Part shown: positions 4,789 through 29,329 of the stretch, one piece after another
Layout: each line of letters starts with the position of its first letter
How positions within the stretch are numbered: position 1 is the first letter of the stretch
Source: a virus
DNA length: 43,322 bases
Strand: one strand, 5' to 3'
Virus record (IMG/VR): IMGVR_UViG_3300031772_000072
Location: 1-43,322 of that record
Program-made: the position numbers and the translations under genes
The notes under the pieces: model-generated
What the model saw: the letters and a program-made list of their open reading frames with translations, nothing else
Told to the model about the DNA's origin: nothing
Database searches by the model: none

Positions 4789-5231
4789 AAACCAGAATCT
4801 CGGTGTTTGTCGGTGCCGTTGCATTACTGTTTGCGTGCGGCGGTGCGAATCTCAGCGACTCTGGCAAGAATGATGTCGGATTCTCCGCGACGCCTGGAAG
4901 TGGTGCCATTCTATACGGGTATGGAACCACTCAGAATCCGAGTCCACTCGGACTACTCGGTCCCTTGGGGGTCCCGATGCCCTCCTCGGGGACGGTGCAG
5001 AATCTCTACGCGGTGTCCGAACCAGTCCTGACCGCCACCGGGGCGACCATCACAATCTCCGTCAACGGGGTCGATTCCGCCCTTTCGTGCGAGTTCGACA
5101 ACCAGGGAAGGTGCGTGAATACCAGCGTTCAGATCAGCGTCACAACGGGCCAACGGGTGCAGGGGTGGCTCCGGTACCCGGTCCAAGGATCACCCTATCC
5201 CGTTGTCGCCGTGGCTGTTGAGAAAAAGTGA
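4785..5231 (+). CDS. exported lipoprotein in the lysogeny block
   Basis: 148 aa. MKTRISVFVGAVALLFACGG is a signal peptide ending in a lipobox (LFAC, Cys18), so the mature protein is lipid-anchored in the cell envelope. The rest is beta-rich, with a Gly/Ser/Pro linker (residues 28-70) and a domain with two Cys (SCEFDNQGRC, about 101-110). AGGAGGA precedes the ATG, which overlaps the upstream stop. It is a candidate surface moron (receptor masking or exclusion); the family is not recognised. Confidence 0.7.
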   Translation: MKTRISVFVGAVALLFACGGANLSDSGKNDVGFSATPGSGAILYGYGTTQNPSPLGLLGPLGVPMPSSGTVQNLYAVSEPVLTATGATITISVNGVDSALSCEFDNQGRCVNTSVQISVTTGQRVQGWLRYPVQGSPYPVVAVAVEKK

Positions 5232-5246
5232 GGACTGGGTTGAGGG

Positions 5247-5268
5247 GCAACTTTTAAGTGAAAGTTGC
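5247..5268. repeat. inverted repeat upstream of the integrase start
   Basis: GCAACTTT (5247-5254), 6-base loop, AAAGTTGC (5261-5268): a perfect 8-bp stem. It lies 15 bases before the integrase start codon. There is no T-run after it, so it is more likely an operator or mRNA structure controlling integrase than a terminator. Confidence 0.5.
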
Positions 5269-5283
5269 AACTACGCATTAGAA

Positions 5284-6324
5284 ATGATGGCGCTTTATAA
5301 GAGAGGAAGGATTTTCTGGTGCCGGGGATCGGTGCGCGGCAAGGAAGTCCGCCGGTCGCTCGATACTCAGTTCCGGTCCGAGGCTGTCCACCGGTTGCTC
5401 GACATCGAACGGGAACTCTGGTCCGGCCAGCGTGTCCGACCACTACCCTGGCCCACCTTCGCCAGGGACTTCCTTTCTTCCGTCCGCCCGCGACTCCGAC
5501 CCTCCAGCCTTCACAAGTACGAGTTCGTCTGCGACCGATTCGGCAAATTCCTGGCCAGTCGGTCGGTCGGAACAATCACAACTCTGGTAATCGCCGACTA
5601 CGTTCGCCAGCGGTCGCTCGATCCCGGCCTCGGACCCGAGGGTCTAAAATCCGATCTCCGCATTCTTCACGGGGTCTTTACCTTCGCGGTCAAGTCCCGT
5701 CTCCTGGACTCGAACCCAGTGGACTCCAAGGGTCTCGGTAGCCGACCGCGGAATACTCAGCCGTTCAGCCAAGCCGAGATCAGTCGGATGCTCACTGCGT
5801 CGCACGCCCGCGCCCGCCCCGATCTCCCGGCCATCATCTTGACCTTTCTTCTTACCGGATTCCGCATCGGGGACATCTGCGGCCTCTTGAAATCCGACCT
5901 GCACCTAGACTCTAGCCTCATCATCCGCCGCACCGAAAAGCGCGGTAAGGTCGTCTCCATCCCCGTCCACCCACGGCTTCTGTCCGCGCTTCGTGAACAC
6001 CTCAAGTCTTTGAGCGCCGTCCAGCAAGCCAGTCTGTTCGTCTTTCCCACCTCCACCGGCGCCCGCACGTTGCCTCAGACGCTCGACGCTATCCTACGGC
6101 GTCTCTGGAAACGCGCTGGGGTCCAGGGGGCGCACTCCCACCGCTGGCGCGATACATTCGCCGTGCGTCTCCTCGAACAGGGCGCTTCCGTTTACGACGT
6201 GGGAAAGCTACTCGGGATTACCACGTATGTGGTCGAACGTCACTACAGTCCCTATGTGCAGGAACTCCAGGAGCGGGCGCGACGCCTGGTTTCTGGACTT
6301 GACTTGGCTTCGTCTGCGGAGTAG
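5284..6324 (+). CDS. int: tyrosine recombinase (integrase)
   Basis: 346 aa from the ATG at 5284 (an immediately following ATG is equally possible; the in-frame start at 5203 lies inside the lipoprotein gene). N-terminal arm-binding region with short-strand motifs (YKRGRIFWCRGSVRGKEVRRSL), SAM-like core-binding domain, then the catalytic domain. Using numbering from 5203: Arg221 in TGFRIGDICGL, Lys246 in the RRTEKRGK hairpin, His313 and Arg316 in HRWRDTFA, nucleophile Tyr348 in ERHYSPY. The usual LGH before the tyrosine is LGI. It catalyses integration at the attP about 320 bp downstream. Confidence 0.93.
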   Translation: MMALYKRGRIFWCRGSVRGKEVRRSLDTQFRSEAVHRLLDIERELWSGQRVRPLPWPTFARDFLSSVRPRLRPSSLHKYEFVCDRFGKFLASRSVGTITTLVIADYVRQRSLDPGLGPEGLKSDLRILHGVFTFAVKSRLLDSNPVDSKGLGSRPRNTQPFSQAEISRMLTASHARARPDLPAIILTFLLTGFRIGDICGLLKSDLHLDSSLIIRRTEKRGKVVSIPVHPRLLSALREHLKSLSAVQQASLFVFPTSTGARTLPQTLDAILRRLWKRAGVQGAHSHRWRDTFAVRLLEQGASVYDVGKLLGITTYVVERHYSPYVQELQERARRLVSGLDLASSAE

Positions 6325-9186: not shown

Positions 9187-12100
9187 TCAGGGGCGAGCCG
9201 CCGCTACGGCTGGACTGGTTGGTTTTGTCGGGGCGACCCCTGGATGCCAGAACTTCCTGACTTGTCGGTAGAGACCTGCAAACGGAACGGCAGGCGTGAC
9301 GGTCTCTCCCAGCGCCGCCCTGACGATATCCGTTATCTCGGCTACCTCTGATGGTGCGGCTTTCTTTATCGCATTGGTCGCCTTTTCCAGAAACAGGGGA
9401 CGAAGCGTTCTCCGTTCCTTGGCATCTGCCGCAATCCAGACCTCGGCGGCTTCCTTGATGGGTAGTCGCTTGAAGTCCTCCGCAAGTTGCGTCGAACTCC
9501 CACGCCGGAGAATGGTCTGCATTTCGGCGGGCGACAGATTGCCAGCCTTTTGGCGAATCTCTGCCGTCGGTCGTTCTCCCGCCCTGACGTTTTCCACGAG
9601 ACCGGCCATCAGTCGGCCCTTGGCCTCCTGCTCCCTAGTCTGCTCGGAAAGCGGGAGGGTTTCGTAGACCTTCTCGCGTGCCAGCCGCTCCGCCCGCGTG
9701 CGGAACTTCCGTTCGTAGGCTCCAATCGCCTGAAGGGCGGATTGCAGGATGCCGTAGTCGCGCGATGGATTGAGAAATCCCTGAATCGGGATCGGCGACT
9801 GGCCCACCAGCCAGTCCTGGAACTGGCGCATAAACCCGCGCTTCTTCCCGAACCTGTCCCTCCCGCTGAGGGCTTCGACTACGGGTCGGAGGTACGTCGG
9901 ATTCATCCTGTTGTAGAGAAATCCGCGTGGGTCGTCGTAAAGGTGATAAATGTCGCCTTGGATAGACCGGAACGAGTACTCGTGACCTCTGATCACCGTG
10001 TTGAAGCGACGGTCCCAGTGCCAGTCGTCGTCCGCCAGCTTGGACAGTAGCCGGGCAATCGTGTAGAGCACAACCGCTCCGCCCAGGAGTGCGACCAATT
10101 GTTCCTGGCCCCCCGGCCTGAGAGCTTGCCCTACGAACCTCGCACGGGACTCGGTGAAGTTCGGTGCCAGGCAGAGGAGCCTAAAGATGTCTTGGAGGGT
10201 CTTGTTGCGGCCCAGAACGGTATAGTTCAGCATCCCGAAGGCTGCGTTGCTCTGGTCCGCCGTCCGCCAGAGAATTTGCTCCTCGGTCTCCGTGTCTGCG
10301 TATCGCTGACGGTTCCTCCGCAGCGCGTGCAGGGCCATCGTCATCCCTACTCGCCGGACATATCCCCGGTTGCCGAAAAGCTGCCGCGTGTACCAATGGA
10401 GGACGGGTCCAATCAGGGGAACTTTGTGTAGGAGTCCGCCCGAAGCAACACCCTCCATAAACTGCTCGCGCCAGTCCTGGCCGCCCGCTCCACCCCATCC
10501 TGCGTCAACCAAGGCCGCCTGGTCGGATTGCGTCAGGTCGATGTGGATGGGATTGAAGGCATTGGCCCGATGTTCCAGTCCGTGAACCCCAATCGTAACC
10601 TGATGGAAGGTGGCGAACGAGAGAAGGACTTGCTTCATTTCGGAACTGAACCGCATGATGGCTCGTCCGGGCCGGTATCCACCAACCTGCCACTCTCGGA
10701 TCGCTGACTTCCCCAGGATGTTTCTGAGTTTCGTGTAGGCCTCGGGGTGAATGACGACATCGCCTTGGAGGTAGGTCGGTCTGCCCATCACGTCCTTCCC
10801 AACCCACTTCCACTTCCTCAACGCTGGATGCGGAATTTCCTTGTAGTCTCTGATTTCCTCTGGTTTCGCGTGCGGCTTCACCAGTTGGGCCTCTGGCGGT
10901 TCCGTTATCGGCACGCCTTTGCCCGACACGGCGGCTAGGGGCCGACCGTCCTTGGCCTTTCCCTTCAAGAGTGACTTAATCAAGGCACGCGAGTACAGGG
11001 ACTTCTCGAATGAAGCGTTGTACACCAAAATCCGGTAGGCGAAACTCTTGTTTGGACTTCTGAATCCAGCCTGCTCACCTTCAAAGTCGCTGGCGAAAAC
11101 TCGCCGCTTGGCGAACTTGAAGTTGGGTTGCAACCTTCCTTCGACGAATTCCGACGCCAGCGCCTTGCCGACCGCATTGGGTCGGTTCCAGAGGTGAGTT
11201 GCATAGGCCTTAACGCCCTCCTCCAGGATTCCGGCCTCCTGGCCCCTTTCCAGTTGATCCGAGTAGTACCCCTCCGCCTGTCGGGCGTAAGTCCTTTCCT
11301 GCCCAGTCAGCGTCAGTGCCGCTTCGTACCCAGCTCGAACATCCGGGGCCGATGCAACCGCACGCTGGCGGAGGACAGCCTCATCACCTTCGGCTTCAAT
11401 CCAGTTAAGTATCGCTTCCTGCCTGAGTGGGTCGGGCACCGCCCGCTTCATCTGTTCGGCAAATTCATCGGCAGCCAGGGAACTCCTGTATTCTGCCCCT
11501 GAGAATTTTCTGATGGCCCTCTTGAAGTCCGTTACCGTATACCCGTTTTTGTACCACTCCCAAATCTTGCTTGCCATTGCCTTCGCTTCGTCAAAGGCGG
11601 TCGCGGCAGCAACCGGCGTAGTAGGCGGGGGTGGAGCCTCGCCAACCGGCGGAGGCAGTTTGGCCGCCGTGGCGGAGGGTGTCACCGGCCCTGGCCCCGC
11701 CTCCCTTATCTCTCTTACTCTTTGGCCGAGTTGCTCTAGGGGCGTCCCCTGATAAGCCTCCCCCACTGCCCCTGCGGTCATTGCACCAGGGCCGGGAGGG
11801 ATGGGTGCCAGTGGCGGGACTTTCCCTTCCAGCTCCTCCAGCAAGGCCAAACGCTCTGCCCTACCTTCACTCGATAGATAACGACTTCCCCTGACTTCTT
11901 CCGCCATCCTTGAACGTTGCTGGGGGTTTAGTTTTGCAATGTTCTCCCGGAATTCTGGCGTCAAGACATCGGATTGAACTTCTACTTCAGCGTGCTCGCC
12001 CCTTTTGTCCACTACGAAGGTGCGGTCGCCCCGCCGGATGACAACATCTCTACTCGGATCGAAATCGGAGATGTTTTGGGGCGCTGCCAGCCTCCGTCTT

Positions 12101-15100
12101 TTTGGCGGTAATCGCTTGGCTCTAGACACGGACGGGTGGATGGGTCGTGCCGCAGGGTGCGTCCTTGCGACCAGTTCGACCTTCCCCACTGGCCCGACGA
12201 CCGGGTTGTCGTCTGTGTAGGTGAATGCTTGGGAACCCGCCTTCGGCATCCCCAGATACAAGTCACTCGTCTTGCCGGATGCCGTTGCGTCGAGGAGGTA
12301 CTTCGCGTTGAGAACGAAGTATCCCTCGGTCAGAGGAGCCGCCTTCTCTCGATCCAGATAGTCGTGGGCTGCGTCTGGCCTCAGCGACATAACCACGCCG
12401 ATGTTCTCTCGCCTTAGACTGCCTCCAGGGGAAGTCCTGACCGGAATTTCGACTGTCTTACTGATTTTCCTGTCCTTGTCGCCGGTCGTGAGCCGCCAGC
12501 TGTCCTTGGACGGTTCAATGATGACTCCAGGACTGCGCGGGTCAGCAAATAGCACCAATGTCTTGAGTGCCTGTGCCAATTCGGCCCTGTTGACGGCGTA
12601 CACCTCGGACGCCTCCCGAGGCAACACCGCCTCATAGTTCGGGAAAGTCCCACTGAGGTTCCTGCTTATGACCTCCGCGCCGCCAAAGCGGAAGATGATC
12701 TTCGGGGACTCATCACCGCCGCCGGTACCGACCGAGATGCTGACTGGATTTCCTTTCGCGTGAGTACCGACGATACCAAGGGCTTTCGCGGGCACAAGAA
12801 CCCGAAAGTCAGCCGCACCCGGCGATTCTACCGTCTTGGCAATCAGCCGATGGCCGTCCGTGGCCGCGATGGTGACTTTTCCGCCCTCTGCCTTTATCAG
12901 TGCGCCGTTGAGTTCGTACCGTGATACCCCTTTCGATATGTGACTCTGTGCTGCACGCAGGATGTCAGGGTCGTTCAGGACGGCGGCTGGCTTTTTCTCC
13001 TTCAGTTCCGGCCACACTGGAAACTGGTCGGCCTTCTGACCTGGATCAGGTTGCAAGTCGTTTCCGACCCGCTGGTACATTCCGTCCGCCAGATCGGTCT
13101 TCGTCTTGGCCCATACCTCAAGGTCGGTTGAGTAAAGTTCACCGCCCTTGGCAAGCGAATCCACCAGGATTGGGATTGTGGACTTCTTCTCTCTTACCGC
13201 ATTGTGGAGGGCCGAGTCGTCAATCTTCCTCGGACCGACCGCACGGACGGACGGATGAATCGGTCGTGCCGGGACCTTCGAAGGTGGGGGTGCCAACCCC
13301 TTCGAAGGGGGAAGAATGCCCTCGGTCGGGACCGCCGCACGGCCACCCGCGACGTAATCCGACCCTGCCTCAATGACCTGCGGTTCGGAGAGTGTGCGCA
13401 CCTTCGCCTTCAGGGCATCGCGCTCTTCCTCGGTCAGTACGGGTCGCTGGGAGGGGTCAGCCTCGTATTTTTCAATGCGTGCCTGAAGTTCTCTGCCCTC
13501 CAGGACGGCGTTCCGCAATTCCTCGACGGCGTTGAGTCGCTTCGTCCCAACCGATTTGTTCACCTTCGCCAGTAGGTCTTCGACTTGGGCTCGTACACGC
13601 GGCAAGGTCTGGATTCGCCGAAGTTCCTGCTCATGCGCGAAGTCCGGTCGGGGTTCTGTCGCCGCAGTTGGGGCTGGTGGTTTCGCCACAGTGGCTTCTG
13701 GCGGGACTAGCGCGGGGGCGGCCGTTGTTTCCCTGGCTTCTGGAGTCGCAGGGTGTCGTTTTTCCGGCTCCGCCCCCACGCTGTACTTCGCTGCAAGGTC
13801 GGGGTAATCCTTCAGGACTTCGGGGGGGACAGGTTTGCCATTCTTCACCGCCCAGGCGATGCTTTTGGCATGGCGGTTACCCTCGAATTTCGCAAACTGC
13901 TTATCCGTCAGATGCGACAGCGACTGGGGTTTCTCGGCAATGGCCTTGGCAACCCACTCGTCTCTCCTCCAAATATACGGGGTTCTACCTCGGTCTTCGG
14001 TGCTCTTGGCCTCGGCCCTTGCCTTGGCCTGGGCGATTCTCTCATCGGATTCCAATGTGCGGATTCGGGATTCGATGTCCATCCTCCGCATCGTATTCTT
14101 TTCCCAAGTCGCACGTTGCTGCTTACCCATCTGGCCGACTTGCCAGGGAGAAATTCCACCTTCGGACATGAGTGGGGTGGCGAGAACCGCTCGGTTTTCC
14201 GCACGCAGCGTTTTGACCTCTGCGGTACGCTCCTCCGGCGTCATCTGCCAGACTTCTTTGCCGCCAGGTTGCGGTTTTCCCACTTCGGCAACTGGCGGTT
14301 TCTCCAGTGCGGGGGGTGCCTGCTTGCGCGCGAATTCCGCCAACCGTTCCTTGACTCTTGCCTCTGTCACCCCTTCCAGTGGCACGGCTAAGGTGCTGCC
14401 AATCGAGGGTTCGTTGAACAGGACCAGCGCCGGGGCATCCCCGACTGCCTCTTGGATTCCTTTGTACTTACCGCCCGCACCTTCGACTATCTGGCGAATT
14501 CCCCGGCCTTGGACGACAGCGGCCTTCTCTGGGGCCTTCGCGGGTTCGGGCAGTGTCGGTTTCGGCGCGGCGGCTTCGGGGACGACCGGAGCCGTAGGCG
14601 CGACCCCTGGTACTGGGGTTCCTTGAGCGCGAACCTTTTCCGCCCGTGCCTCCAGAATGTCCTGCAACGCCGCTTGGGGATTCTTCTCTCCCGACAGGCG
14701 CATGTGTTCTTGGACTTCCATGCGAAGGCCACGGTCGAGACGACGTTCTCCGGTATCCACGATTGGCAGTTTTGTGTGTGCGTCAATGGCAACGACTTTG
14801 CCTTGAACGCCTGGGGGTGGTTCAACTTTCGGAGCCGGTGGGGCTTCTGCCGTAACCGGTTTGGGGACGACCGCACCCACTTGAGGTACGGGCACGGGAG
14901 TCGGGGCAACTCCGGGTTGCGCCACAGGTTCAGTCGGCGCCGGCAGGGCACGTTGCGGAGCGGTAGGCAACTCTCTGGCTGGCCTGAACGCTGGCGGTTC
15001 GGTCGTGACGAACTTCGGTCTTGGACCCATCGCGGCCCCGGCCACACCCGCCGCACCGAAGAGTACCTGGGAGGCGGCAGCCAGTTTCCCCTCAAGGTTC

Positions 15101-16071
15101 TTGGCCTCTGTGAAGTTCTTGGTTCCTTCGCCTACAAATCCTGCTCCGACGGCGCCAGAGGCAATCCGTGCTGCCTGTGCGGTGTTGTGGGCCATCTTGG
15201 CGGCCTCGTAGGCGATAACGGCCTTCTGGTAGGCTGGAAGGAGGGTGGCTGACGATGCACCCGCCGCCCTCAACGCTGAGTAGTCCGCCACAGCCGCCTT
15301 TGCAGCCGTTAGGGATTCAGTCGCAGTCTTGAAGGCCTTGGCGACGCCGTAACCCGCCGCCATCAAAGCAAGATTGAACGGCGACGTGAATCCTGACAGG
15401 ACCCTCCCGCCGCTTTCGGCAGCGCCAAGTAGAAACGCCTCCGTCCGGTTCTTGCGGATGTTGGGGTTGGCAAGTTCTTCTTGTATCTCCTTCGGCGTTC
15501 TTCCTCCGGCCAGGAACTGCGTTATCTTCTCTGGCGAGATGAGACCGTCGAATACCGCTTTGCGACCAGCCTCGGTCTCAGCGGTTAGTTCTTGACCCGT
15601 TACGAAGGGTTTGCCAGCACCGTACTTCGCGCCGACCAAGGACGGAATGCCCTGCGGCTTGCGTGGTGCCTGGGCCGCCGGTGCAGTTACCGGTGGTGGC
15701 GCAGCAAGGACTGGCGGCAGAGGCTCCGCTGGCGGCATCGCAGGAATCCTAGCCGTTGCAAAAGTCGGGGAGACCGGTCGTTGTTCGGGACGAGACACCG
15801 GCGATGGCGGTAGTGGGGCCGGAAGCCCCAGCGGGGTCAAATCTTCGGCAGTGGGCGGGACGACGGCAGCGGGAACGTGGCCGGGGGGAAGTTGCAGAGG
15901 CGGCAATCCGGGCAGACCAGGGGCCACCGCGGCCGGATGTGCAGGAACCAAGGAGGGAAGAGCAGCGCCCGGAATTGCTGGTGTCAGACCCAGTTCCTTC
16001 GCCAGTGCTGTCGGCTGCACAGGGGCAACCGCAAGCCCAAGTTCCTCCGCTAGGGTCCTCCGTTCGGCCAC
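9187..16071 (-). CDS. giant polyvalent virion protein with embedded beta-clamp domain
   Basis: 2294 aa, GTG start at 16071 with GGAGGAG upstream. Residues 1-30 hold two LAxELGL repeats; 30-140 and several later linkers are Pro/Ala-rich. About 210-350 is an Ala-rich helical, membrane-active-looking stretch; 700-765 contains the YPDLAAKY polyvalent-protein motif after GKPVPPEVLKD. Residues 950-1305 read as a three-domain DnaN sliding clamp. About 1500-2260 matches the C-terminal large-polyvalent-protein (LPD38-like) region, with a hydrophobic span near 1992-2012. Such proteins are packaged and injected with the DNA. No lytic or helicase motif was found. Confidence 0.85.
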   Translation of the reverse strand: MAERRTLAEELGLAVAPVQPTALAKELGLTPAIPGAALPSLVPAHPAAVAPGLPGLPPLQLPPGHVPAAVVPPTAEDLTPLGLPAPLPPSPVSRPEQRPVSPTFATARIPAMPPAEPLPPVLAAPPPVTAPAAQAPRKPQGIPSLVGAKYGAGKPFVTGQELTAETEAGRKAVFDGLISPEKITQFLAGGRTPKEIQEELANPNIRKNRTEAFLLGAAESGGRVLSGFTSPFNLALMAAGYGVAKAFKTATESLTAAKAAVADYSALRAAGASSATLLPAYQKAVIAYEAAKMAHNTAQAARIASGAVGAGFVGEGTKNFTEAKNLEGKLAAASQVLFGAAGVAGAAMGPRPKFVTTEPPAFRPARELPTAPQRALPAPTEPVAQPGVAPTPVPVPQVGAVVPKPVTAEAPPAPKVEPPPGVQGKVVAIDAHTKLPIVDTGERRLDRGLRMEVQEHMRLSGEKNPQAALQDILEARAEKVRAQGTPVPGVAPTAPVVPEAAAPKPTLPEPAKAPEKAAVVQGRGIRQIVEGAGGKYKGIQEAVGDAPALVLFNEPSIGSTLAVPLEGVTEARVKERLAEFARKQAPPALEKPPVAEVGKPQPGGKEVWQMTPEERTAEVKTLRAENRAVLATPLMSEGGISPWQVGQMGKQQRATWEKNTMRRMDIESRIRTLESDERIAQAKARAEAKSTEDRGRTPYIWRRDEWVAKAIAEKPQSLSHLTDKQFAKFEGNRHAKSIAWAVKNGKPVPPEVLKDYPDLAAKYSVGAEPEKRHPATPEARETTAAPALVPPEATVAKPPAPTAATEPRPDFAHEQELRRIQTLPRVRAQVEDLLAKVNKSVGTKRLNAVEELRNAVLEGRELQARIEKYEADPSQRPVLTEEERDALKAKVRTLSEPQVIEAGSDYVAGGRAAVPTEGILPPSKGLAPPPSKVPARPIHPSVRAVGPRKIDDSALHNAVREKKSTIPILVDSLAKGGELYSTDLEVWAKTKTDLADGMYQRVGNDLQPDPGQKADQFPVWPELKEKKPAAVLNDPDILRAAQSHISKGVSRYELNGALIKAEGGKVTIAATDGHRLIAKTVESPGAADFRVLVPAKALGIVGTHAKGNPVSISVGTGGGDESPKIIFRFGGAEVISRNLSGTFPNYEAVLPREASEVYAVNRAELAQALKTLVLFADPRSPGVIIEPSKDSWRLTTGDKDRKISKTVEIPVRTSPGGSLRRENIGVVMSLRPDAAHDYLDREKAAPLTEGYFVLNAKYLLDATASGKTSDLYLGMPKAGSQAFTYTDDNPVVGPVGKVELVARTHPAARPIHPSVSRAKRLPPKRRRLAAPQNISDFDPSRDVVIRRGDRTFVVDKRGEHAEVEVQSDVLTPEFRENIAKLNPQQRSRMAEEVRGSRYLSSEGRAERLALLEELEGKVPPLAPIPPGPGAMTAGAVGEAYQGTPLEQLGQRVREIREAGPGPVTPSATAAKLPPPVGEAPPPPTTPVAAATAFDEAKAMASKIWEWYKNGYTVTDFKRAIRKFSGAEYRSSLAADEFAEQMKRAVPDPLRQEAILNWIEAEGDEAVLRQRAVASAPDVRAGYEAALTLTGQERTYARQAEGYYSDQLERGQEAGILEEGVKAYATHLWNRPNAVGKALASEFVEGRLQPNFKFAKRRVFASDFEGEQAGFRSPNKSFAYRILVYNASFEKSLYSRALIKSLLKGKAKDGRPLAAVSGKGVPITEPPEAQLVKPHAKPEEIRDYKEIPHPALRKWKWVGKDVMGRPTYLQGDVVIHPEAYTKLRNILGKSAIREWQVGGYRPGRAIMRFSSEMKQVLLSFATFHQVTIGVHGLEHRANAFNPIHIDLTQSDQAALVDAGWGGAGGQDWREQFMEGVASGGLLHKVPLIGPVLHWYTRQLFGNRGYVRRVGMTMALHALRRNRQRYADTETEEQILWRTADQSNAAFGMLNYTVLGRNKTLQDIFRLLCLAPNFTESRARFVGQALRPGGQEQLVALLGGAVVLYTIARLLSKLADDDWHWDRRFNTVIRGHEYSFRSIQGDIYHLYDDPRGFLYNRMNPTYLRPVVEALSGRDRFGKKRGFMRQFQDWLVGQSPIPIQGFLNPSRDYGILQSALQAIGAYERKFRTRAERLAREKVYETLPLSEQTREQEAKGRLMAGLVENVRAGERPTAEIRQKAGNLSPAEMQTILRRGSSTQLAEDFKRLPIKEAAEVWIAADAKERRTLRPLFLEKATNAIKKAAPSEVAEITDIVRAALGETVTPAVPFAGLYRQVRKFWHPGVAPTKPTSPAVAAARP
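12157..13224 (-). other. DnaN-like sliding clamp domain inside the polyvalent protein
   Basis: Protein residues 950-1305. Domain 1: STIPILVDSL and STDLEVWAK (DnaN: TIPIL and ATDLE). Domain 2: YELNGALIKAEGGKVTIAATDGHRL and, after VLVPAKAL, GTFPNYEAVLP (DnaN: LNGVLLE, ATDGHRL, VPRKAL, GxFPDYxxVIP). Domain 3: NRAELAQALKTLVLFAD and FVLNAKYLLDA (DnaN: xRADLLxALxRV, FNxRYLLDAL). All three domains appear in the normal order and spacing. The C-terminal PMR-like tail of true clamps is not obvious. Confidence 0.75.
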
Positions 16072-16072
16072 G

Positions 16073-17458
16073 TCACTCCTCCGTCGGCGCGGTCGCCCCG
16101 GTCTGAGTCTCGAAAAGTTTCTTCATGGCCGCCACCTGGGGAGAGTCCCGGTATCTCATCTGGAGTTGCCGGTAGAGTGCAGACTCAACCAGAGGCAGGG
16201 AGGCTTTGGTTCTCGCCGAAACACCGGCCCCTGAAGCGCGTTGGTAGAGGGACTTGGTGGCCGCCTTGTATATCTCCAGCGGATCGCCCGAAACCGCGAC
16301 CTTCGGATCTACCTGCTGAATCAACAGACCCGCCGTATCGAATGCCTCAGCCTCGCGCTGGTCGGTCTCCTCGCGGGCCGTTGGTCCCTTGGGTTCCGAA
16401 ATGTGCGTCGCCACAGCCTTCTTCCGCATGGCCTTCAGGATCGTCGCCTGGCCCACTAGGTCTCCACTCTCGACGGCTGCGGAATACCGCTGGTCCAGAG
16501 TCTCGAATTTCTCCGTCACCTTCCCCTTCGGCGCCAGCGCCCGAACTTTTGTCGGCACAGACGGATGAACGACGAACTTGCCCGCCGCCTCGGGCTTCAT
16601 GGCCTCGGGGAGCCAGAATTGATTTGCTCCGGTAGTGGCCGGATTGAGTTCTGGTCCTGGCGGGACCGTGATGCTGATCGGTTCCCAGGTTTTCGTCTCT
16701 GCGTTCCACTGGTGGGGCACATCCTGGCCGCCCACGTTGAAGGTCTGGGTATGGGGTGCTTGCTCCGCCCCCGGCTTCGGCGGGACCAGGGTGTATCTCT
16801 CAGGCTCCGCCTGAATCTGCGCTGCGGTGGCCTTGACCGACTCGCGCCTCATCTTGTCGAATACGTCGTAGAGGGTCTCTTCCTTGGCAGTTGGCGTGGT
16901 GGCCTTGGCAATGCCAACCCGCGCAGCGTATTCTCGGCCTGCCTGTTCCAGGCCTTGCTCCCACTTGGCCTGCGGGCGTCCCGCGAGAGTCTGCAAGACC
17001 CCACCGCCCCCTGCAAGCGCCGCGCCCAGGAAGGGCTGACCAAATCTATGCCCCCGGCGCGGGCCAGCGAACGCTGCTCCCATGGCCTGGAGGACCGGCG
17101 CTGCGAGGGCTGCGAACGACTGAAGGCGAGTGGGCTGGGGCTTTGGCTCTGTTAGTCTCCGGTAGAGGTCTTCCCACTCGGTCCGCGTAGGTTCGACCTT
17201 TCTGTAGCCTCCGCCATCGGCTCCTGCCGTTCCAGCCGCAGACGCTTTCCCTGCCACTCCGCCAACCCCTCCAGGCAATGGTAGGGTCGGTTCTGCGGGC
17301 ACTCCTGGAACTCCCCCAGAGGACGGTGGTGCCGAACCTAGCATCCCTCCAAGGCCCATCATCTTAGCCAACTCTGGGTGTGCCGCCAGCAAGAGCCAGT
17401 TTGGGACTCCTGCCATTTGGTCACCAACGAATCCGCTCATACCTCCGAATCCGCCCAT
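16073..17458 (-). CDS. internal virion protein
   Basis: 461 aa from the ATG at 17458, chosen for GGAGGTGA upstream; the longer frame would overlap the next gene. Gly-rich N-terminus (GGFGGMSGF, GLGGMLGS), an Ala/Gly helical region (about 150-190) that may insert in membranes, and a charged helical C-terminal third. It also carries a VVHPSVPTKVRAL segment like the linkers in the giant protein. Position and composition fit a podovirus internal (ejection) protein partner of the polyvalent protein. Its stop sits 1 bp before that gene's GTG. Confidence 0.7.
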   Translation of the reverse strand: MGGFGGMSGFVGDQMAGVPNWLLLAAHPELAKMMGLGGMLGSAPPSSGGVPGVPAEPTLPLPGGVGGVAGKASAAGTAGADGGGYRKVEPTRTEWEDLYRRLTEPKPQPTRLQSFAALAAPVLQAMGAAFAGPRRGHRFGQPFLGAALAGGGGVLQTLAGRPQAKWEQGLEQAGREYAARVGIAKATTPTAKEETLYDVFDKMRRESVKATAAQIQAEPERYTLVPPKPGAEQAPHTQTFNVGGQDVPHQWNAETKTWEPISITVPPGPELNPATTGANQFWLPEAMKPEAAGKFVVHPSVPTKVRALAPKGKVTEKFETLDQRYSAAVESGDLVGQATILKAMRKKAVATHISEPKGPTAREETDQREAEAFDTAGLLIQQVDPKVAVSGDPLEIYKAATKSLYQRASGAGVSARTKASLPLVESALYRQLQMRYRDSPQVAAMKKLFETQTGATAPTEE

Positions 17459-17459
17459 C

Positions 17460-17699
17460 TCACTCACCTCCGAATCCGCCTGAGGCCCAAGCGCCAGAAA
17501 ACGGATTCGCACCCACCGCCCCTTGGCGCATCAAGAAGTCCGTGAAGTTGCCTGGGTTGGGAAAGAGCGGTCCAGGTGCCGATACATCAGGCGTGGTCTT
17601 TGACGCTTCTTCAGGTTGGCCGAACAGACCCGTGTTCTTCGCCGCCTGCGTCCCGGAGGCCGCGATTTGGACTCCTAACAATACCGCTTGCCAGCACAT
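17460..17699 (-). CDS. small virion-associated hypothetical protein
   Basis: 79 aa. MCWQAVLLGVQIAASGTQAAKNTGLFG is Ala-rich and mildly hydrophobic, followed by a Pro/Gly-rich tail ending in SGGFGGE. GGGGGGAAAG precedes the ATG. Its stop is 1 bp before the next start. The Gly-rich style matches the neighbouring internal proteins, so it is probably part of the same injected assembly. Function unknown. Confidence 0.6.
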   Translation of the reverse strand: MCWQAVLLGVQIAASGTQAAKNTGLFGQPEEASKTTPDVSAPGPLFPNPGNFTDFLMRQGAVGANPFSGAWASGGFGGE

Positions 17700-20995: not shown

Positions 20996-21280
20996 TCAAC
21001 TCGGCGCACTCGGAACTGGTGTCGCATCCATCCCGACCGCCTCGGCTACCAGCGGAAATGTCTGAGCCAGTTCATCGCTTATGACCAGTTCGCGGTCGCA
21101 GACCTCGACAAAGAACTCGTGGAACCCATCCGTGTGGAACTTCAGCCAGTACGATTTCGGCCATGCCCCGGACCCGCATCCCATTCCTCGACCTCCAAAC
21201 CGGTAGGCCTCGGGATGGTGCTTGCGGACCGGAACAACGTTCGTGTGCAGATGGTCCTGATGAACGAAAACGGCCTCCAT
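20996..21280 (-). CDS. hypothetical small head-tail region protein
   Basis: 94 aa. Its ATG shares one base with the upstream stop. His-rich start (MEAVFVHQDHLHTNVVPVRKHHPE), a Gly-rich turn and a helical KFHTDGFHEFFVEVCDRELVISDE. It is placed where head-completion or adaptor proteins normally lie. No family recognised. Confidence 0.6.
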   Translation of the reverse strand: MEAVFVHQDHLHTNVVPVRKHHPEAYRFGGRGMGCGSGAWPKSYWLKFHTDGFHEFFVEVCDRELVISDELAQTFPLVAEAVGMDATPVPSAPS

Positions 21281-21966
21281 CAGTTCGTACTCCTCACAGT
21301 CGCATCGGAGTCAGATGTGCGAAGTTCAGTCACAGCCTCCTGAGATGGCGAGTTAAACGCCTTTAACCTCTCCAAGGCGCGCTCGAAGTCCCTGTCGGCC
21401 ACCACAAATCGAGAATCCTTCTGGCCAAACAGGTGTAGGTAAACCCGCCGGATCAGGGCCAAGAGTGGGACGTTGTGGTATGTCGGTGGGATGAGGGGGA
21501 TTTCATCGTCCGAGACATCGCCGTGGATGTTGAATCCCGCCCAGTACGTTATCTGGTAAGTTGCCACCGCGTCGGGATTCATCTTCAGGCACAGGGTTAG
21601 CGGTGCTCCAGGATAGGGGAAGTACACACTCGGTTCCCCCTGCGTGGTGTCAGCCAGAAATGCCTGGACGTTGTCTTCGTCACCCTCGAAGTAGAGTTTG
21701 TCCGCACTGCCGTCCGCATTCAGTCGGTACACTGAGATGATTTGCTCAAGGTCATCTGCTTCGTCCAAGCCAGCCTTCGACAGGTCGTACTCGGACGTCC
21801 CCACCACGGAGTCCACCGTCGCCACCTTGCGGCGCCACCAGTACCGCTTCTCCTGGATGATCTGAGAGATTTCTAGGTCTAGCCAGGCCTTGAGATTCAA
21901 CTTAATCCCACGCCCTTCGGCGAGTTCGGTAGCGAGGTCAATAATCTGTTGCTTCGTGTAGGCCAA
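21280..21966 (-). CDS. head-tail connector/adaptor-like protein
   Basis: 228 aa with a TTG start at 21966, three bases after the upstream TAG and behind a GGGGGCG; the longer in-frame ORF to 22215 is embedded in the neighbouring gene. It begins AYTKQQIIDLATELAEGRG and contains a WLDLEISQIIQEKRYWWRRK helix, a strand region (FDNxxx-like LYFEGDEDNVQAFL) and YWAGFNIHGDV, then VPLLALIRRVYLHLFGQKDSRF. The helix-sheet-helix layout is like phage head-tail adaptors; it follows the capsid genes. Confidence 0.65.
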   Translation of the reverse strand: MAYTKQQIIDLATELAEGRGIKLNLKAWLDLEISQIIQEKRYWWRRKVATVDSVVGTSEYDLSKAGLDEADDLEQIISVYRLNADGSADKLYFEGDEDNVQAFLADTTQGEPSVYFPYPGAPLTLCLKMNPDAVATYQITYWAGFNIHGDVSDDEIPLIPPTYHNVPLLALIRRVYLHLFGQKDSRFVVADRDFERALERLKAFNSPSQEAVTELRTSDSDATVRSTN

Positions 21967-21968
21967 CT

Positions 21969-22790
21969 CTACGCCCCCGTCGCTTTCAGAGTTCGAACGG
22001 CTTTCGCCTCTTCGGTTAATCCGACGACCCCTTCGATGTAGGCTTTTTGGTGCTCGAAGAAGTCCTTGATTGAGTATGGGTAATCCCCGACATGCCCCGG
22101 CGTCACTGAAGTGTCGCAGTAGATCTGAAACCCGATGCGCTGGGCCTTCCACGAAAACGAAATATCCTCTCCAAACTCGCCGCCCAGTGGTCCCCATTTG
22201 AATCGAAACCACCACCCTCTTCCGTCTTTGGCGTATTCCTTGGGGTGGTAGGCGCGGGCAACGTCTTCAATCACCCTTCGGCTGAGAAGCAGAAACCCAG
22301 TCCCTATCGCGTCCACCTCGATAAGACCTCCGTGCGGCCACTCGATCAGCGCCCCGTAGTTCTGGGTTTCCTCCATCCACTGCCGAATCGTCGGCCTGGG
22401 TGGGTCCTGACGCTGCGTGCAGAGTCCGCCGACGATGTCCTTTTTGTGCGCTAGAAGTCGGTCGAGATAATCCGGCTCGGGGACGATGTCGTCATCCATG
22501 AACAAAACATAGTCGCAGTTCGGTCGCCGCTGTTCCAAAAGAACATTCCTGGTCCAGTGAATCACGCAAGACGAAAGGCGGGGAGGCATGAAGACGTCAT
22601 GCTTGCCCTTGGGACATTCGGCTGGATGGTGGATTTCCCTTGGATCGACGCGACCCTTCGAGAGATGTGCGGTCTGAATGGCCCGGAATGCGCACTTACA
22701 CGCGGAAAATTCCATCATCCGGTTCGTGGCTTCCCACATGGCCGGGTGAGGCATTTTGTACTGGGGACAAAGCACGTCGACTACGGCCAT
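21969..22790 (-). CDS. glycosyltransferase (GT-A fold, family 2-like)
   Basis: 273 aa. A GT-A sugar-nucleotide site is visible: YVLFMDDDIVPEPDYLDRL with the DDD motif at residues 99-101, then IVGGLCTQRQ and a distal GGEFGEDISFSWKA (GEDxxF acceptor-site motif). It transfers a sugar from a nucleotide donor. An unusual home is the middle of the head-tail block, which suggests glycosylation of a virion protein or a role with the glycan genes at 28-31 kb. ATG 22790 with GGGAAGGG upstream. Confidence 0.8.
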   Translation of the reverse strand: MAVVDVLCPQYKMPHPAMWEATNRMMEFSACKCAFRAIQTAHLSKGRVDPREIHHPAECPKGKHDVFMPPRLSSCVIHWTRNVLLEQRRPNCDYVLFMDDDIVPEPDYLDRLLAHKKDIVGGLCTQRQDPPRPTIRQWMEETQNYGALIEWPHGGLIEVDAIGTGFLLLSRRVIEDVARAYHPKEYAKDGRGWWFRFKWGPLGGEFGEDISFSWKAQRIGFQIYCDTSVTPGHVGDYPYSIKDFFEHQKAYIEGVVGLTEEAKAVRTLKATGA

Positions 22791-23616: not shown

Positions 23617-24813
23617 TCACGCATAAGCAGAGCAATTAAAACCTCTGCTATGCTTCTTCTCGTTCACGACGATCCACGCGAGTTCGCCCCGGACTTCGTG
23701 GGTGGTGGCGTCCGCCCCAGCCTTGACCACGTCCCTGTAGAGCGCCACGTCACGGTTGACGCCGTTGCCGTTGAGGTAGAAGAGAGTCACAGCTTCCAGG
23801 TCGATGATGTAGAACTCATCGTTGTACCCGGCCTGTGACGCAACCCCCGCCTCCATCAGCCAGTTCGGAGCCAGGAGCAACTCGCCGTGCGGCAACATGA
23901 ACCGCTTGATGTTGACACCAAAGACGGTGCTTTCCACTTCAGTCTTCAGGGCGTTCTGCGCGAAGTAGTTGATCCCTGAATGGACTGCCGGCGCAGCAAT
24001 GAGCAACTTGCGGTGCTGGCTGTACCGGAAGGCAGTCTCCGACACGGTGTTCCACTTCGTCAGGGTGGCAGTCGTCGCCATGTCGTTGACGTTCGTGCTG
24101 ACGCGCGACTTGAACCCCATCGTGGTGCGCACGCTCGCAGGAGCCGCAAGACTTTCCGAAGCCCTGCCCCAGAGTCCCGCAGCCTCGATCTGCTTCTTCA
24201 GCTCGATCTGGGCCTTGGCAATCTGGTATTCCTCGTCCGGCTCGCCGTAGACTTCCGTGGCCTGCATAGTGCCGGTGATCTGAATCGGCTCACGGAAAAT
24301 CTGCGTGTAGGAGGTGATGGTGCTCTTGGTGGTCGAACGGACAGAGCCCAGAGCCGCCCCTTCCGCGAAGGCCGAACCGATGATGCGGAGTGCCTGACCG
24401 ACATTGATGCTGTCCTGCCCGGCACCACCGATGCTACGGGTAACGGTCAGAGTGTTGGAACTGATTGCCGTCACGCGGACGATTTCCTCGGCTGCGGAAC
24501 TGGAATTCGCTTTCTGGACGGCCACCAAGTCGCCCACGGCAAACAGCGTCCCGTCGCTGACCAGGATGCCCGTGGCGACCGAACTGATGGTCGCATTGCT
24601 GGCGTGGTAGTCCCACAGACCACGCACATCGTCTTCAATCTGCTCGATGCGGGGACTCTTGGAGGGTTTCTTGCGCTTGGCGTTGATGGACATCACGAGT
24701 AGAGGGGTTACATCCCTGTCCAGGAGGGCAATACGGTCTCCGATTTCCCTTACCTGGATTCCCTCACCTGTGATGGCCTGGTAGGTGGACCGTGCAACCA
24801 CTACGTTTGCCAT
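23617..24813 (-). CDS. major capsid protein (SU10/DUF5309 type)
   Basis: 398 aa. It opens MANVVVARSTYQAITGEG and contains the DUF5309 features: about residues 160-205, a TTKSTITSYTQIFREPIQIT segment followed by GTMQATEVYGEPDEEYQIAKAQIELKK, and later a PNWLMEAG-VDLEAVTLFYL region. GGAGAAATCAG precedes the ATG. It forms the HK97-like shell. The preceding gene is the scaffold and the following one a small zinc protein, the standard order. Confidence 0.85.
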   Translation of the reverse strand: MANVVVARSTYQAITGEGIQVREIGDRIALLDRDVTPLLVMSINAKRKKPSKSPRIEQIEDDVRGLWDYHASNATISSVATGILVSDGTLFAVGDLVAVQKANSSSAAEEIVRVTAISSNTLTVTRSIGGAGQDSINVGQALRIIGSAFAEGAALGSVRSTTKSTITSYTQIFREPIQITGTMQATEVYGEPDEEYQIAKAQIELKKQIEAAGLWGRASESLAAPASVRTTMGFKSRVSTNVNDMATTATLTKWNTVSETAFRYSQHRKLLIAAPAVHSGINYFAQNALKTEVESTVFGVNIKRFMLPHGELLLAPNWLMEAGVASQAGYNDEFYIIDLEAVTLFYLNGNGVNRDVALYRDVVKAGADATTHEVRGELAWIVVNEKKHSRGFNCSAYA

Positions 24814-26138: not shown

Positions 26139-26249
26139 CTAATGTCGGAGGGCGCGATCTACCAGGACCTGCGACCAAACATACGCCGCCAGAAGCAGGG
26201 CGGTACCGACATAGATGAGGGTGACAATAATTTTGTCTCGGCGTGTCAT
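26139..26249 (-). CDS. small single-span membrane protein (36 aa)
   Basis: Found by reading the gap between the scaffold and the DNA methyltransferase. ATG 26249 overlaps the methyltransferase stop (ATGA), TAG at 26141-26139. It starts MTRRDKIIVTLIYVGTALLL and continues AAYVWSQVLVDRALRH: a basic N-terminus, one hydrophobic span (about 8-25) and a short basic tail. It was too short for routine ORF lists. Function unknown. Confidence 0.6.
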   Translation of the reverse strand: MTRRDKIIVTLIYVGTALLLAAYVWSQVLVDRALRH

Positions 26250-27013
26250 TGGCTCACACCTCCTTTCGTTTCGACTTCTGGCTGTTCCAGTCTCCGCTCG
26301 AACAGGTTCCGTTGTGCCTCGACCAGTGCAATGCGTTCATTGGCGATGTCCACGTATTTCTGTTCGATCTCAAAACCGAGGAAATGCCGCCCCAACTTCT
26401 TCGCCGCCACCGCCGTCGTGCCCGAGCCAAGGAAGGGGTCAAGGATGGTTTCTGGAAACTTCGCCTGCTCAACACACCACATCATCAATTCGACTGGTTT
26501 CTGCGTCGGATGGTGGAACGCACCCCGTTCACTATCTCTTATCAGGCCGAACCAGGTATGACGGAAAACTCTTACGCCCTTGCCGATGTCGGTCCAGGCC
26601 AACTCCGCTTCACTCATCGGCCAGTCTGCCTCTGAAACATCCCGCCTTCCATTTCGCTTATCCCAAACCCACCATCCCCCGCGATCTGGAAGACGGCTGG
26701 CATACCAATTTGCCCCCCATAGAACTTTTGCCTTCGAACTGACCTGTAGAACCGGAGTTGGATCGAATGGGGAATCATCACCAACAATCGGAACATGGCG
26801 GTGCTGTCCAGATCGGTCTGATTTATTCCACCACTTTCCGGCCTTTGTCTTAAACCTATCAGCGAAATCAATTGCCAACCCACTCCCATACGGCGGATCG
26901 GTAATCACCGCATCCACGCACCCATCCGGCAGCGCCTTCATCAGTTCCAAGCAATCGCCGCAGACTACCGTGCAGCAGTCATATGGCCCGATCTTTCGCC
27001 CGCAGCCGGTCAT
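26246..27013 (-). CDS. DNA methyltransferase (beta-class N6-adenine/N4-cytosine type)
   Basis: 255 aa. DPPYGSGLAIDF (DPPY at 39-42) precedes the AdoMet site DPFLGSGTTAVAA near residue 195, the order of beta-class enzymes. The DPPY form favours adenine-N6. A target-recognition region lies between. A Cys-rich N-terminus (CGRKIGPYDCCTVVCGDC) is noticeable. It presumably modifies phage DNA to escape restriction; no restriction partner is visible. It overlaps its neighbours by 4 bp on each side. Confidence 0.88.
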   Translation of the reverse strand: MTGCGRKIGPYDCCTVVCGDCLELMKALPDGCVDAVITDPPYGSGLAIDFADRFKTKAGKWWNKSDRSGQHRHVPIVGDDSPFDPTPVLQVSSKAKVLWGANWYASRLPDRGGWWVWDKRNGRRDVSEADWPMSEAELAWTDIGKGVRVFRHTWFGLIRDSERGAFHHPTQKPVELMMWCVEQAKFPETILDPFLGSGTTAVAAKKLGRHFLGFEIEQKYVDIANERIALVEAQRNLFERRLEQPEVETKGGVSQ

Positions 27014-27609
27014 CCCGACCGCCTTTTCCCCAGTCCCAAGAACATCTTGTAAATCGACATCTCGAAGTCAAACCATTCAATCAGTTCGTGCCCGCCTCGG
27101 TCGAAAAAGGCATCAAAATCCTCGCGGTCAAACGACCAGATATGTCCCGATTCCTGGAATTCGCCGCGGTCACCCTCCAGCGGGGAGGAAATCACCGAGT
27201 ATCTGGCCTTCGGCAACCACCTCTTGACCATCCCCAACGGGTCTGCAATATGTTCAAGAAACTCAGTGAGAATCACCACATCGCAATCCTCGGGTTCCAC
27301 TGTCTGAGCATCCCCAATGCGCACGTCCATCTGCGGCCAGTCGGACTTGGCGCCAGCGACGGCTTCCAGGCCGCATTCGTAGCCGATAACGTCATGGTCC
27401 GCCGAAAACCACCCCGAAATATCCGCCCTCCCGCATCCGGGTTCGATGATTTTGCATCTTCGATTCAGGTCGGCCAACAACGTACCTAGCACGCGCCGGG
27501 TGAGTAGGATGCGGCCCTGCTGACTGGTTTCGACAAAGCGAGGCGAGGGTCGATTGGCCACATGGAAGGCCAGACTCTCCGCTGCGGTGCGGTCCTTGAG
27601 TCTCAGCAC
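27010..27609 (-). CDS. class I SAM-dependent methyltransferase (copy 1)
   Basis: 199 aa from GTG at 27609. IIEPGCGRADISGWF is AdoMet motif I, DVVILTEFLEHIADP is motif IV/post-I, and YSVISSPLEGDRGEF follows, as in Methyltransf_23-type enzymes. It is clearly a paralogue of the next gene upstream (27612-28223), sharing VILTExLEHxADP, W-x-V-S and FERGxHE. Such enzymes O-methylate sugars or other small substrates; the epimerase and glycosyltransferases nearby make a glycan substrate plausible. Confidence 0.82.
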   Translation of the reverse strand: MLRLKDRTAAESLAFHVANRPSPRFVETSQQGRILLTRRVLGTLLADLNRRCKIIEPGCGRADISGWFSADHDVIGYECGLEAVAGAKSDWPQMDVRIGDAQTVEPEDCDVVILTEFLEHIADPLGMVKRWLPKARYSVISSPLEGDRGEFQESGHIWSFDREDFDAFFDRGGHELIEWFDFEMSIYKMFLGLGKRRSG

Positions 27610-27611
27610 CC

Positions 27612-28223
27612 CTATACCCGCCTCCCGACCCCGATGGCGATGGTGTAGTCGGGCAAACTCAGAATTTCCTTGCGGATGACCTCATGCTGCCCTCGTTCGA
27701 AGAACTCCGACCAGTCGGTCTCGGAAATGGACCAGCAGTGCTCTCCAGCCGATACGTCCTTGGGCAAGTCCCCGTCGATGGGGCACGAAAGGACCGAATA
27801 GGCCGAAACCGTCAGCCACTTCTCTGCCAGCAACATCGGGTCGGCTACGTGCTCCAGGATTTCGGTCAATATCACGATGTCGCATGGCAGCGGGACGGCT
27901 TCCTGCACGTCTACAACCTCGACATTCATCCACGGATACCGCTTGGCTGCGGCAATGGCAGCGGTGGGCGACGCTTCAAGGCCCAGAACGTAATGCGCCC
28001 ACGAGAAAAACCCTGAAATGTCGGCGGTTCCGCAGCCGAGTTCGACGATCTTGCCCCACCTATGGACCGGAGTTTTGTTCATATCGAGCAAGGCCACAAT
28101 CACAGCCTCGCGGGTCTTCTCGATCCGGCGGGCGTGCCAAGGGTCATCCTCGTAAACCCGCCCCGGCTTCCGGGCATGGAGCTGGAAGCACTCCGGTGGC
28201 GTCCTTTCAACGAGTCTTTTCAC
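27612..28223 (-). CDS. class I SAM-dependent methyltransferase (copy 2)
   Basis: 203 aa from the GTG at 28223, chosen for GGAGG upstream; the longer frame to 28463 runs through another small gene. KIVELGCGTADISGFF is motif I, then an acidic motif II-like region (VEVVDVQEAV) and CDIVILTEILEHVADP. Homologous along its length with the adjacent copy, so the pair probably arose by duplication. The first residues lie in one copy of a 29-bp direct repeat. Confidence 0.82.
   Translation of the reverse strand: MKRLVERTPPECFQLHARKPGRVYEDDPWHARRIEKTREAVIVALLDMNKTPVHRWGKIVELGCGTADISGFFSWAHYVLGLEASPTAAIAAAKRYPWMNVEVVDVQEAVPLPCDIVILTEILEHVADPMLLAEKWLTVSAYSVLSCPIDGDLPKDVSAGEHCWSISETDWSEFFERGQHEVIRKEILSLPDYTIAIGVGRRV
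28190..28218. repeat. 29-bp imperfect direct repeat, left copy
   Basis: Matches 28443-28471 with two mismatches; the last 21 bases (28198-28218) are exact. It covers the start of methyltransferase copy 2. The copies lie 253 bp apart and flank the 62-aa zinc gene. Confidence 0.85.
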
Positions 28224-28395
28224 GTTTCTTCCTCCGCCACGGACATCGGCATGTGGCCGTATAGGTGAGTCTGTGTTCTCCGGCCCAGTGGTCGGTAACG
28301 AGGGCTTCCTGACACCGGACACAGAACGCAACCCTAAAGGTCGCAGCTCCGCCTGGCGGTTCCGTAACGCGAGTAAACCGGTACATTCCACGCAT
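28207..28395 (-). CDS. small Cys/His-rich protein
   Basis: 62 aa, ATG at 28395 after GGTGAAAT. After MRGMYRFTRVTEPPGGAATFRVA it has CVRC, H-rich DHWAGEHR and CRC motifs, enough ligands for one zinc site, and a basic tail (RRKKREKTR) that could bind nucleic acid. It overlaps the next gene by 17 bp and is bracketed by a direct repeat at 28190-28218/28443-28471, as if inserted or duplicated. Confidence 0.55.
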   Translation of the reverse strand: MRGMYRFTRVTEPPGGAATFRVAFCVRCQEALVTDHWAGEHRLTYTATCRCPWRRKKREKTR

Positions 28396-28442
28396 ATTTC
28401 ACCGTGTTCCCTGAACGGGTTTCCACCCGTGCGACCGGAGGT

Positions 28443-28471
28443 ACTCCCCTGGCGTCCTTTCAACGAGTCTT
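28443..28471. repeat. 29-bp imperfect direct repeat, right copy
   Basis: Right partner of 28190-28218. It covers the last codons and stop of the epimerase gene, so the end of one gene and the start of another share this sequence. Confidence 0.85.
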
Positions 28472-29329
28472 CGCATGGGCCTCCTCGACGGCACGGCGTA
28501 TCCCCTCAGCCAGCGTTATCCTGGCCTCGAATCCGTGCGCCCTTGCTAGGGTTGTGTCGGCAACCCTGCGTGGAGACGATGCGGGCTTCGACGTGTCAGC
28601 CACAATCATCGGTTTGTAACCGACTTCATCCACCATCATGGTGGCGAGTTCGTAGAAACTCGTTCCGACCCCCGTTCCGATGTCGATGGGGATGCCTCGC
28701 GGCGCGTTCTCGATGGCCCACACAAAAGCGTCCGTCAGGTCGTCGATATGAATCCAGTCTCGGACGGTTTCGAGCGACCCCCAGACGGTCAGCGGATGCT
28801 CATGTCGTATGGCGCGCTTCAGCAGGGCAGGGAACGGGTAGGAATCCGCCTGGTCGGAAGCGTACCCGGAGAACGGCCTTAATATGACCGTGGGGATACC
28901 CGCCTTGTGCAGTTCCTGGCAGAACCGCTCGCCAGTCAGTTTCACCCAGGCGTAGGGGTCTTCGGGATTGTCGGTGGCACACGAACTGGGGTAGATGAAG
29001 CATTCTCGGGGTGGATGCTCCGCAACGTACTGGCAGACCGCGAAATCGAGGCCGATGTCGGCGAACTTGTCGAGTCCGCCAGCCATGCGCTTCGAGATGT
29101 CGAGAATGTTGGCGCCGAGGTGGACGACCAAGTCAAAGGTGGGAACCTCAATGCCATGCAATCGCTCAAACGCCCGCCGAGAATCGAGCCACTCTTCGAA
29201 TGTCGCCGTCACGGCACACGTAAAGCGGCAGGGGTCAACGCCAGTCACAGCGTACCCCACGGCCTCCAGTTTCGGAACCAGGTGTCGGCCTATGAAACCG
29301 GCAGCTCCGACGACTAGGGCAGTCTTCAT
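28460..29329 (-). CDS. NAD-dependent sugar epimerase/dehydratase (SDR)
   Basis: 289 aa. GAAGFIG (residues 8-14) is the NAD(P) binding Rossmann glycine motif and YAWVK is the catalytic Y-x3-K, preceded by PSSCATD (SSC in the serine position). Later, RDWIHIDDLTDAF is characteristic of the extended SDR nucleotide-sugar epimerases. It would interconvert or reduce a nucleotide sugar, supplying the glycosyltransferases around it. Overlaps the next gene by 4 bp. Confidence 0.87.
   Translation of the reverse strand: MKTALVVGAAGFIGRHLVPKLEAVGYAVTGVDPCRFTCAVTATFEEWLDSRRAFERLHGIEVPTFDLVVHLGANILDISKRMAGGLDKFADIGLDFAVCQYVAEHPPRECFIYPSSCATDNPEDPYAWVKLTGERFCQELHKAGIPTVILRPFSGYASDQADSYPFPALLKRAIRHEHPLTVWGSLETVRDWIHIDDLTDAFVWAIENAPRGIPIDIGTGVGTSFYELATMMVDEVGYKPMIVADTSKPASSPRRVADTTLARAHGFEARITLAEGIRRAVEEAHAKTR

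Follow-up and report, generated by a model that had tools for sequence, protein, structure and literature searches.

A rearranged DnaN-like clamp module inside a giant late phage protein

Why would a phage encode a sliding clamp in the middle of a very large protein that lies among its late genes, and could such a clamp still close around DNA? The question is raised by the viral contig IMGVR_UViG_3300031772_000072 (IMG/VR), whose 43,322 nt we analysed as a whole and refer to as the window. A first-pass annotation had described a complete DnaN-like clamp, with all three domains, inside a 2294-residue protein encoded beside virion genes, and proposed that it would bring a ready clamp or a clamp competitor into the host at entry. 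Our results show a known fold in an altered form and in a new protein setting. The homology to DnaN stands; the completeness does not, because half of domain I is missing and the MPMRL strand is not at the end.

Clamp homology and the missing half of domain I

The giant gene (Table 1) is a single unbroken open reading frame that begins 1 nt past the end of the 479-aa gene, with an even codon-position GC along its length. Residues 949–1305 match DnaN by profile and by fold. The central clamp domain PF02767 is found at residues 1045–1145 (2.2e-10; 41.3 bits, above the cut-off of 27), phrog_947 (“DNA polymerase processivity factor”) matches at 2e-25, DnaN chains in the PDB match down to 1.2e-13, and TIGR00663 (dnaN) matches at 5e-26, with a score short of the model's curated cut-off (137.65 bits). 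Chance does not explain the clamp homology. All the motifs quoted in the first-pass annotation (12157–13224) lie in frame where it had placed them, and a clamp-derived domain within a 2294-residue protein encoded with late virion genes is confirmed. It is also the sole domain that Pfam, PHROGs and NCBIfam recognise in this protein. Exact-peptide searches of viral contigs and genomes returned no close relative of either the clamp or the whole giant protein. Among candidate clamp-binding peptides within the giant protein itself, there were two weak matches (QVLF at 335 and QVLL at 1814), both in hydrophobic stretches, which we set aside.

A fold model of the clamp, built by AlphaFold2 with viral clamps as the alignment, has a pLDDT of 71 that drops below 50 around model residues 272–300, in domain III. 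Its top PDB matches are only DnaN clamps (E about 1e-18), with a TM-score of only about 0.5. Comparison of a predicted structure with DnaN, which had been suggested as a check, supports the homology through these matches. Foldseek also paired the model with BFVD entry A0A1C7A3Q1_1, an 804-aa protein of Haloarcula californiae icosahedral virus 1 (E 2.4e-7), with a target TM-score of 0.21, a match that may be chance.

DnaN consists of three tandem clamp domains, each made of two beta-alpha-beta-beta-beta halves, and the window clamp departs from this layout. We aligned it to a canonical HMM of 368 positions made from 18 clamps, taken from phages and viral contigs together with one Salmonella DnaN. 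The match covers positions 19–58, then 109–309 and then, weakly, 319–346. Because it stops at about 58 and restarts at 109, domain I lacks its second half. Residues 71–109 of DnaN numbering are gaps, among them R103, R105, F106 and L108, which we take from established knowledge of the E. coli clamp to be ring-interface residues. The acidic interface residues of domain III are replaced as well, and the head-to-tail interface (domain I 103–108 with domain III 272–304) is absent from the sequence. A canonical ring is unlikely, since the domain I segment with the ring-closing strand is deleted, and for the same reason the “full” or “ready” clamp of the first-pass annotation is not supported.

The peptide-binding side looks different. 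In domain II all the pocket residues are identical to those of DnaN (L155, T172, G174, H175, R176, L177, P242 and V247), and R152 and Y153 have also been retained. In domain III the other half of the pocket has degenerated, with MPMR changed to MSLR. The chain end of domain III has no MPMRL strand; a VVMSLR segment sits earlier instead, before the NAKYLLDA helix.

Table 1. Coordinates of the features in the window and of related genes elsewhere
Feature	Position	Strand	Size	Remarks
Giant late protein	9187..16071	-	2294 aa	GTG start, GGAGG ribosome site
479-aa late gene	16073..17512	-	479 aa	directly upstream of giant gene
N-terminal hydrophobic segment	15309..15462	-		residues 204-254; TSPFNLAL motif match, phmmer not significant
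Direct repeat, upstream copy	13247..13271	-	25 nt	ARPIHPSV, residues 935-942
Half clamp domain I	13026..13227	-		residues 949-1015; helix 1 and strands 2-5 only, from HMM and model secondary structure
Clamp domain II	12619..13026	-		PF02767; ATDGHRL and FPNYEAVLP; pocket residues conserved
Clamp domain III	12157..12609	-		first half canonical, second half rearranged
Internal segment RENIGVVMSLRP	12376..12411	-		residues 1221-1232; aligned with SIVMPMR of stand-alone relatives
Direct repeat, downstream copy	12128..12152	-	25 nt	ARPIHPSV, residues 1308-1315
C-terminal family domain	9322..11514	-		residues 1520-2250; common to L146, G311 and G260 giant proteins
SU10-type adaptor protein	21280..22215	-		PF24175, 3e-9
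SU10-type major capsid protein	23617..24813	-		PF17236, 5e-38
Clamp-free homologue L146	IMGVR_UViG_3300037116_000046		1176 aa	E 2e-118, 37% identity over 630 residues
Clamp-free homologue G311	L135:11002-14730		1243 aa; open frame 1248 aa	C-terminal domain, E 8e-38
Clamp-free homologue G260			at most 1187 aa	C-terminal domain, E 6e-6
Two stand-alone rearranged phage clamps	L002:6067-7149 and L019:7944-9035			half domain I missing, VMPMR moved inward
Tiera_022			1845 aa	giant late gene, annotated structural
EPV3 gp20 (EBPR podovirus 3)			1844 aa	giant late gene
CRP-810 gp35			2016 aa	giant late gene, follows “internal virion protein D”
Acidobacterial element G160			1743 aa	giant late gene
Acidobacterial element G024			2114 and 1525 aa	giant late gene, two open frames

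Gain of the module and its rearranged relatives

How did a clamp come to lie in this protein? When 396 genomes from the acidobacterial phylum were searched with the C-terminal part of the giant protein, the homologue G311 emerged; a two-row alignment then led to L146 and G260. None of these three giant proteins contains the clamp. In L146 and G311 a hydrophobic TSP-L-L segment lies near the N terminus as it does in the window protein, a likeness of motif with a score that is not significant. The clamp-free homologues directly follow a gene of 512–518 aa, just as the giant gene follows the 479-aa gene. From the hydrophobic segment to the C-terminal domain there are about 1290 residues in the window protein versus about 310–340 in L146 and G311, and the clamp hence falls within some 950 extra residues specific to this lineage. 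By sequence, the giant protein has gained its clamp module between the N-terminal hydrophobic segment and the C-terminal family domain, and the clamp-free homologues mark it as acquired cargo. The giant gene of G311 lies beside an integrase and a DnaD-like gene (L135 4124–5194 and 16590–17747) with no capsid recognised nearby, and this element is possibly a satellite or a degraded prophage.

The edges of the module carry a trace of their own. Two 25-nt direct repeats flank it, 88% identical, 1119 nt (373 codons) apart and in frame. They encode ARPIHPSV, the sole 8-residue repeat in the giant protein; any such repeat arises in 0.6% of block shuffles. Direct repeats at both edges of the clamp are also what one might expect if the assembly had wrongly fused a stand-alone clamp gene to a virion gene, and we found no second clamp-bearing copy of the giant gene. 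Such an artefact is nevertheless very improbable. Repeats of 88% identity with mismatches are too poor for the usual assembly join, the frame is held over 373 codons with even codon-position GC, and the module has neither a start nor a stop codon of its own in the frame of the ORF. Just upstream of the module there are two further direct repeats of 22 nt (13266–13311, core CCTTCGAAGG), which encode a PPSK linker.

The nearest clamps of the same build are Tunturi_4 gp79 and the clamp of IMGVR_UViG_3300048854_000056, both encoded by stand-alone genes (about 361–364 aa). The host of Tunturi_4 is Tunturiibacter (Acidobacteriota), its genome is rich in replication genes, and gp79 is annotated as a processivity factor. 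In both clamps VMPMR precedes the helix that it normally follows. Under the canonical HMM the two relatives gain 14 and 12 bits, relative to the sequence trimmed of VMPMR, when this segment is shifted to the end; random segments have no such effect, and the result is convincing for these two. The window VVMSLR sits at the same place as the inward-moved VMPMR; the same shift yields 5 bits, a gain that 11 of 200 controls equal and that is not convincing alone. The relocated segment has low confidence in both fold models.

For the phylogeny we used domain II and the first half of domain III, a region free of the missing and moved parts. The window clamp and the two stand-alone phage clamps form one clade with support of 95/92, and of 99/96 after 29 bacterial clamps are added, with the window copy on a long branch. 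Together, alignment and tree point to a small lineage of rearranged phage clamps with three members, including the window copy. The bacterial relatives are built differently. A scan with the same alignment recovered 71 bacterial loci, almost all of them acidobacterial. Wherever their ORFs are unbroken, domain I is whole and MPMR-type residues lie close to the chain end, and these relatives are thus canonical clamps of full length encoded by stand-alone genes. Because nearly all of these relatives are acidobacterial, the host of the window phage is probably an acidobacterium too, which we treat as a lead, the scan being biased by peptide patterns.

Among the clamps measured in 14 phage records and 17 viral contigs, none is embedded in a frame longer than about 520 aa. 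A separate observation concerns gp31 of the Burkholderia phage BcepC6B (L003:8058–8573), which is named a RusA-like Holliday junction resolvase, adjoins a DNA polymerase gene and matches the clamp module. The equally named phrog_3007 matches the window clamp at residues 1036–1191. From these matches the RusA-like name looks like a misannotated partial clamp.

The late gene cluster and the possible role of the module

Is the giant protein part of the virion? Its gene shares a strand with those of the capsid and the adaptor and lies 7.5 kb downstream of the former. Phages with an SU10-type capsid have a giant gene in the corresponding place, close to where the late operon ends, and theirs contains no clamp (Table 1). 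The gene for PaP2 gp25 (1849 aa), a protein related in sequence to Tiera_022, likewise comes after one for a virion structural protein. Searches with phmmer, hmmsearch and hhalign against proteins of Tiera, EPV3, PaP2, P5, CRP-810 and Kuura gave no similarity to the window protein, and kinship with the podovirus giant proteins is hence one of position only. The records of the three clamp-free homologues gave no match to an SU10-type capsid gene. For both reasons packaging is inferred from operon position. On this ground the giant protein is probably late-expressed and virion-borne.

One could also argue that it is a late intracellular protein that acts in replication, packaging or lysis. Genes for a cell wall hydrolase and a dNMP kinase adjoin the giant gene, and the surroundings of the G311 homologue, with an integrase and a DnaD-like gene and no recognised capsid, would fit such a role. 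We consider it rather unlikely, since the gene occupies the same operon place as the giant virion gene in several phages with the same capsid and the protein has a hydrophobic N-terminal segment.

Other genes place the phage in context. With a tyrosine integrase (5203–6324, plus strand), it is likely to be temperate. The contig looks incomplete, since neither a terminase nor a portal gene was recognised in the window. Between the capsid and tail genes, the late strand encodes a DNA methylase, two methyltransferases, a sugar epimerase and a glycosyltransferase (26246–31229). A 666-aa late protein (32238–34238) has ASH/HYDIN-type Ig-like domains (PF22073, 7.8e-13), which is unusual for a phage. 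The contig IMGVR_UViG_3300031952_000108 encodes a capsid protein 99% identical to that of the window; its record stops before the giant gene and opens with a 1081-aa ORF in place of the 666-aa gene, so close relatives may differ in the tail region.

What could the module do? One reading is a working clamp, which would form a ring through another interface and supply the phage with a processivity factor on entry. Both stand-alone relatives have these deletions too, and one of them is the annotated processivity factor of a phage with many replication genes; R152 and Y153 are kept in the window copy. The ring might be of an unusual kind, or the rest of the giant protein might complete it. Still, a working clamp is distinctly unlikely: the ring-closing half of domain I is absent, the acidic interface of domain III is replaced, the module is tethered within a 2294-aa chain, and no DNA polymerase was recognised in the window, although the contig looks incomplete. 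At the other extreme, the clamp fold could be a structural leftover, reused in a virion protein purely as a passive spacer or a folding module and unable to bind clients. The long branch in the tree, the weakened MPMR motif and the low-confidence end of domain III are consistent with this. It is unlikely all the same, because the domain II pocket is fully kept despite an overall identity of about 30%.

The best fit, which we hold tentatively and at a little less than even confidence, is a clamp module that forms no ring, binds clamp clients and either recruits or withholds host replication proteins. For the module, a role as bait or docking part is more probable than one as a working clamp. 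The giant protein would travel in the particle and enter the cell together with the DNA, as large internal proteins do in other short-tailed phages. The module would most likely not encircle DNA, since the ring-closing segment of domain I is gone and the domain II half-pocket is kept. It could bind proteins with clamp-binding peptides, such as host Pol III subunits, the clamp loader, Hda or repair proteins, or a phage replication protein. Bound proteins might then be either drawn to the incoming phage DNA or held off the host clamp. The ready clamp of the earlier proposal finds no support; given its conserved pocket residues in domain II, the module may instead be a competitor or a decoy. The most specific form of the idea is a virion-delivered clamp mimic, in which an injected non-ring module on a giant internal protein captures host clamp-binding proteins at entry and so builds or blocks a replisome; taken as a whole, this chain of steps is on balance doubtful.

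Comparison with known systems

Virion-borne RNA polymerases and transferred primases are known. In the open-access literature (subscription papers were outside the scope) we found no clamp described in an ejection or polyvalent protein, nor any sliding-clamp module in a giant phage late protein. The paper that defines polyvalent proteins (Iyer et al. 2017, PMC5512222) mentions neither clamp, PCNA nor DnaN in its main text, in agreement with the first-pass annotation, which knew of no full clamp in this protein type. The window protein resembles polyvalent proteins in that it is very large, is encoded near late virion genes and has a domain with a possible action on the host once the phage has entered. 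It differs in having only one recognisable domain, and its injection is inferred. The Tiera-type podovirus giants (Tiera_022, EPV3 gp20 and PaP2 gp25) are alike in size and in their place at the end of the late operon, but they contain no clamp and have no detectable sequence similarity to the window protein.

Compared with bacterial DnaN (TIGR00663; PF00712, PF02767 and PF02768), domain II and the first half of domain III align and the domain II pocket is identical, whereas half of domain I is missing, the C-terminal strand is not at the end, the canonical ring interface is absent and the whole lies within a 2294-aa protein. The closest likeness is to Tunturi_4 gp79 and the clamp of IMGVR_UViG_3300048854_000056, both of the phrog_947 type. 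They share with the window clamp the missing half of domain I, the internal VMPMR-type segment and the clade, but they stand alone and are 30–32% identical to it over their whole length. The three represent clamps that lack the ring-closing half of domain I; in the two that stand alone, the C-terminal strand has also moved inward. With this rearranged lineage it becomes possible to test directly whether ring formation can be separated from peptide binding.
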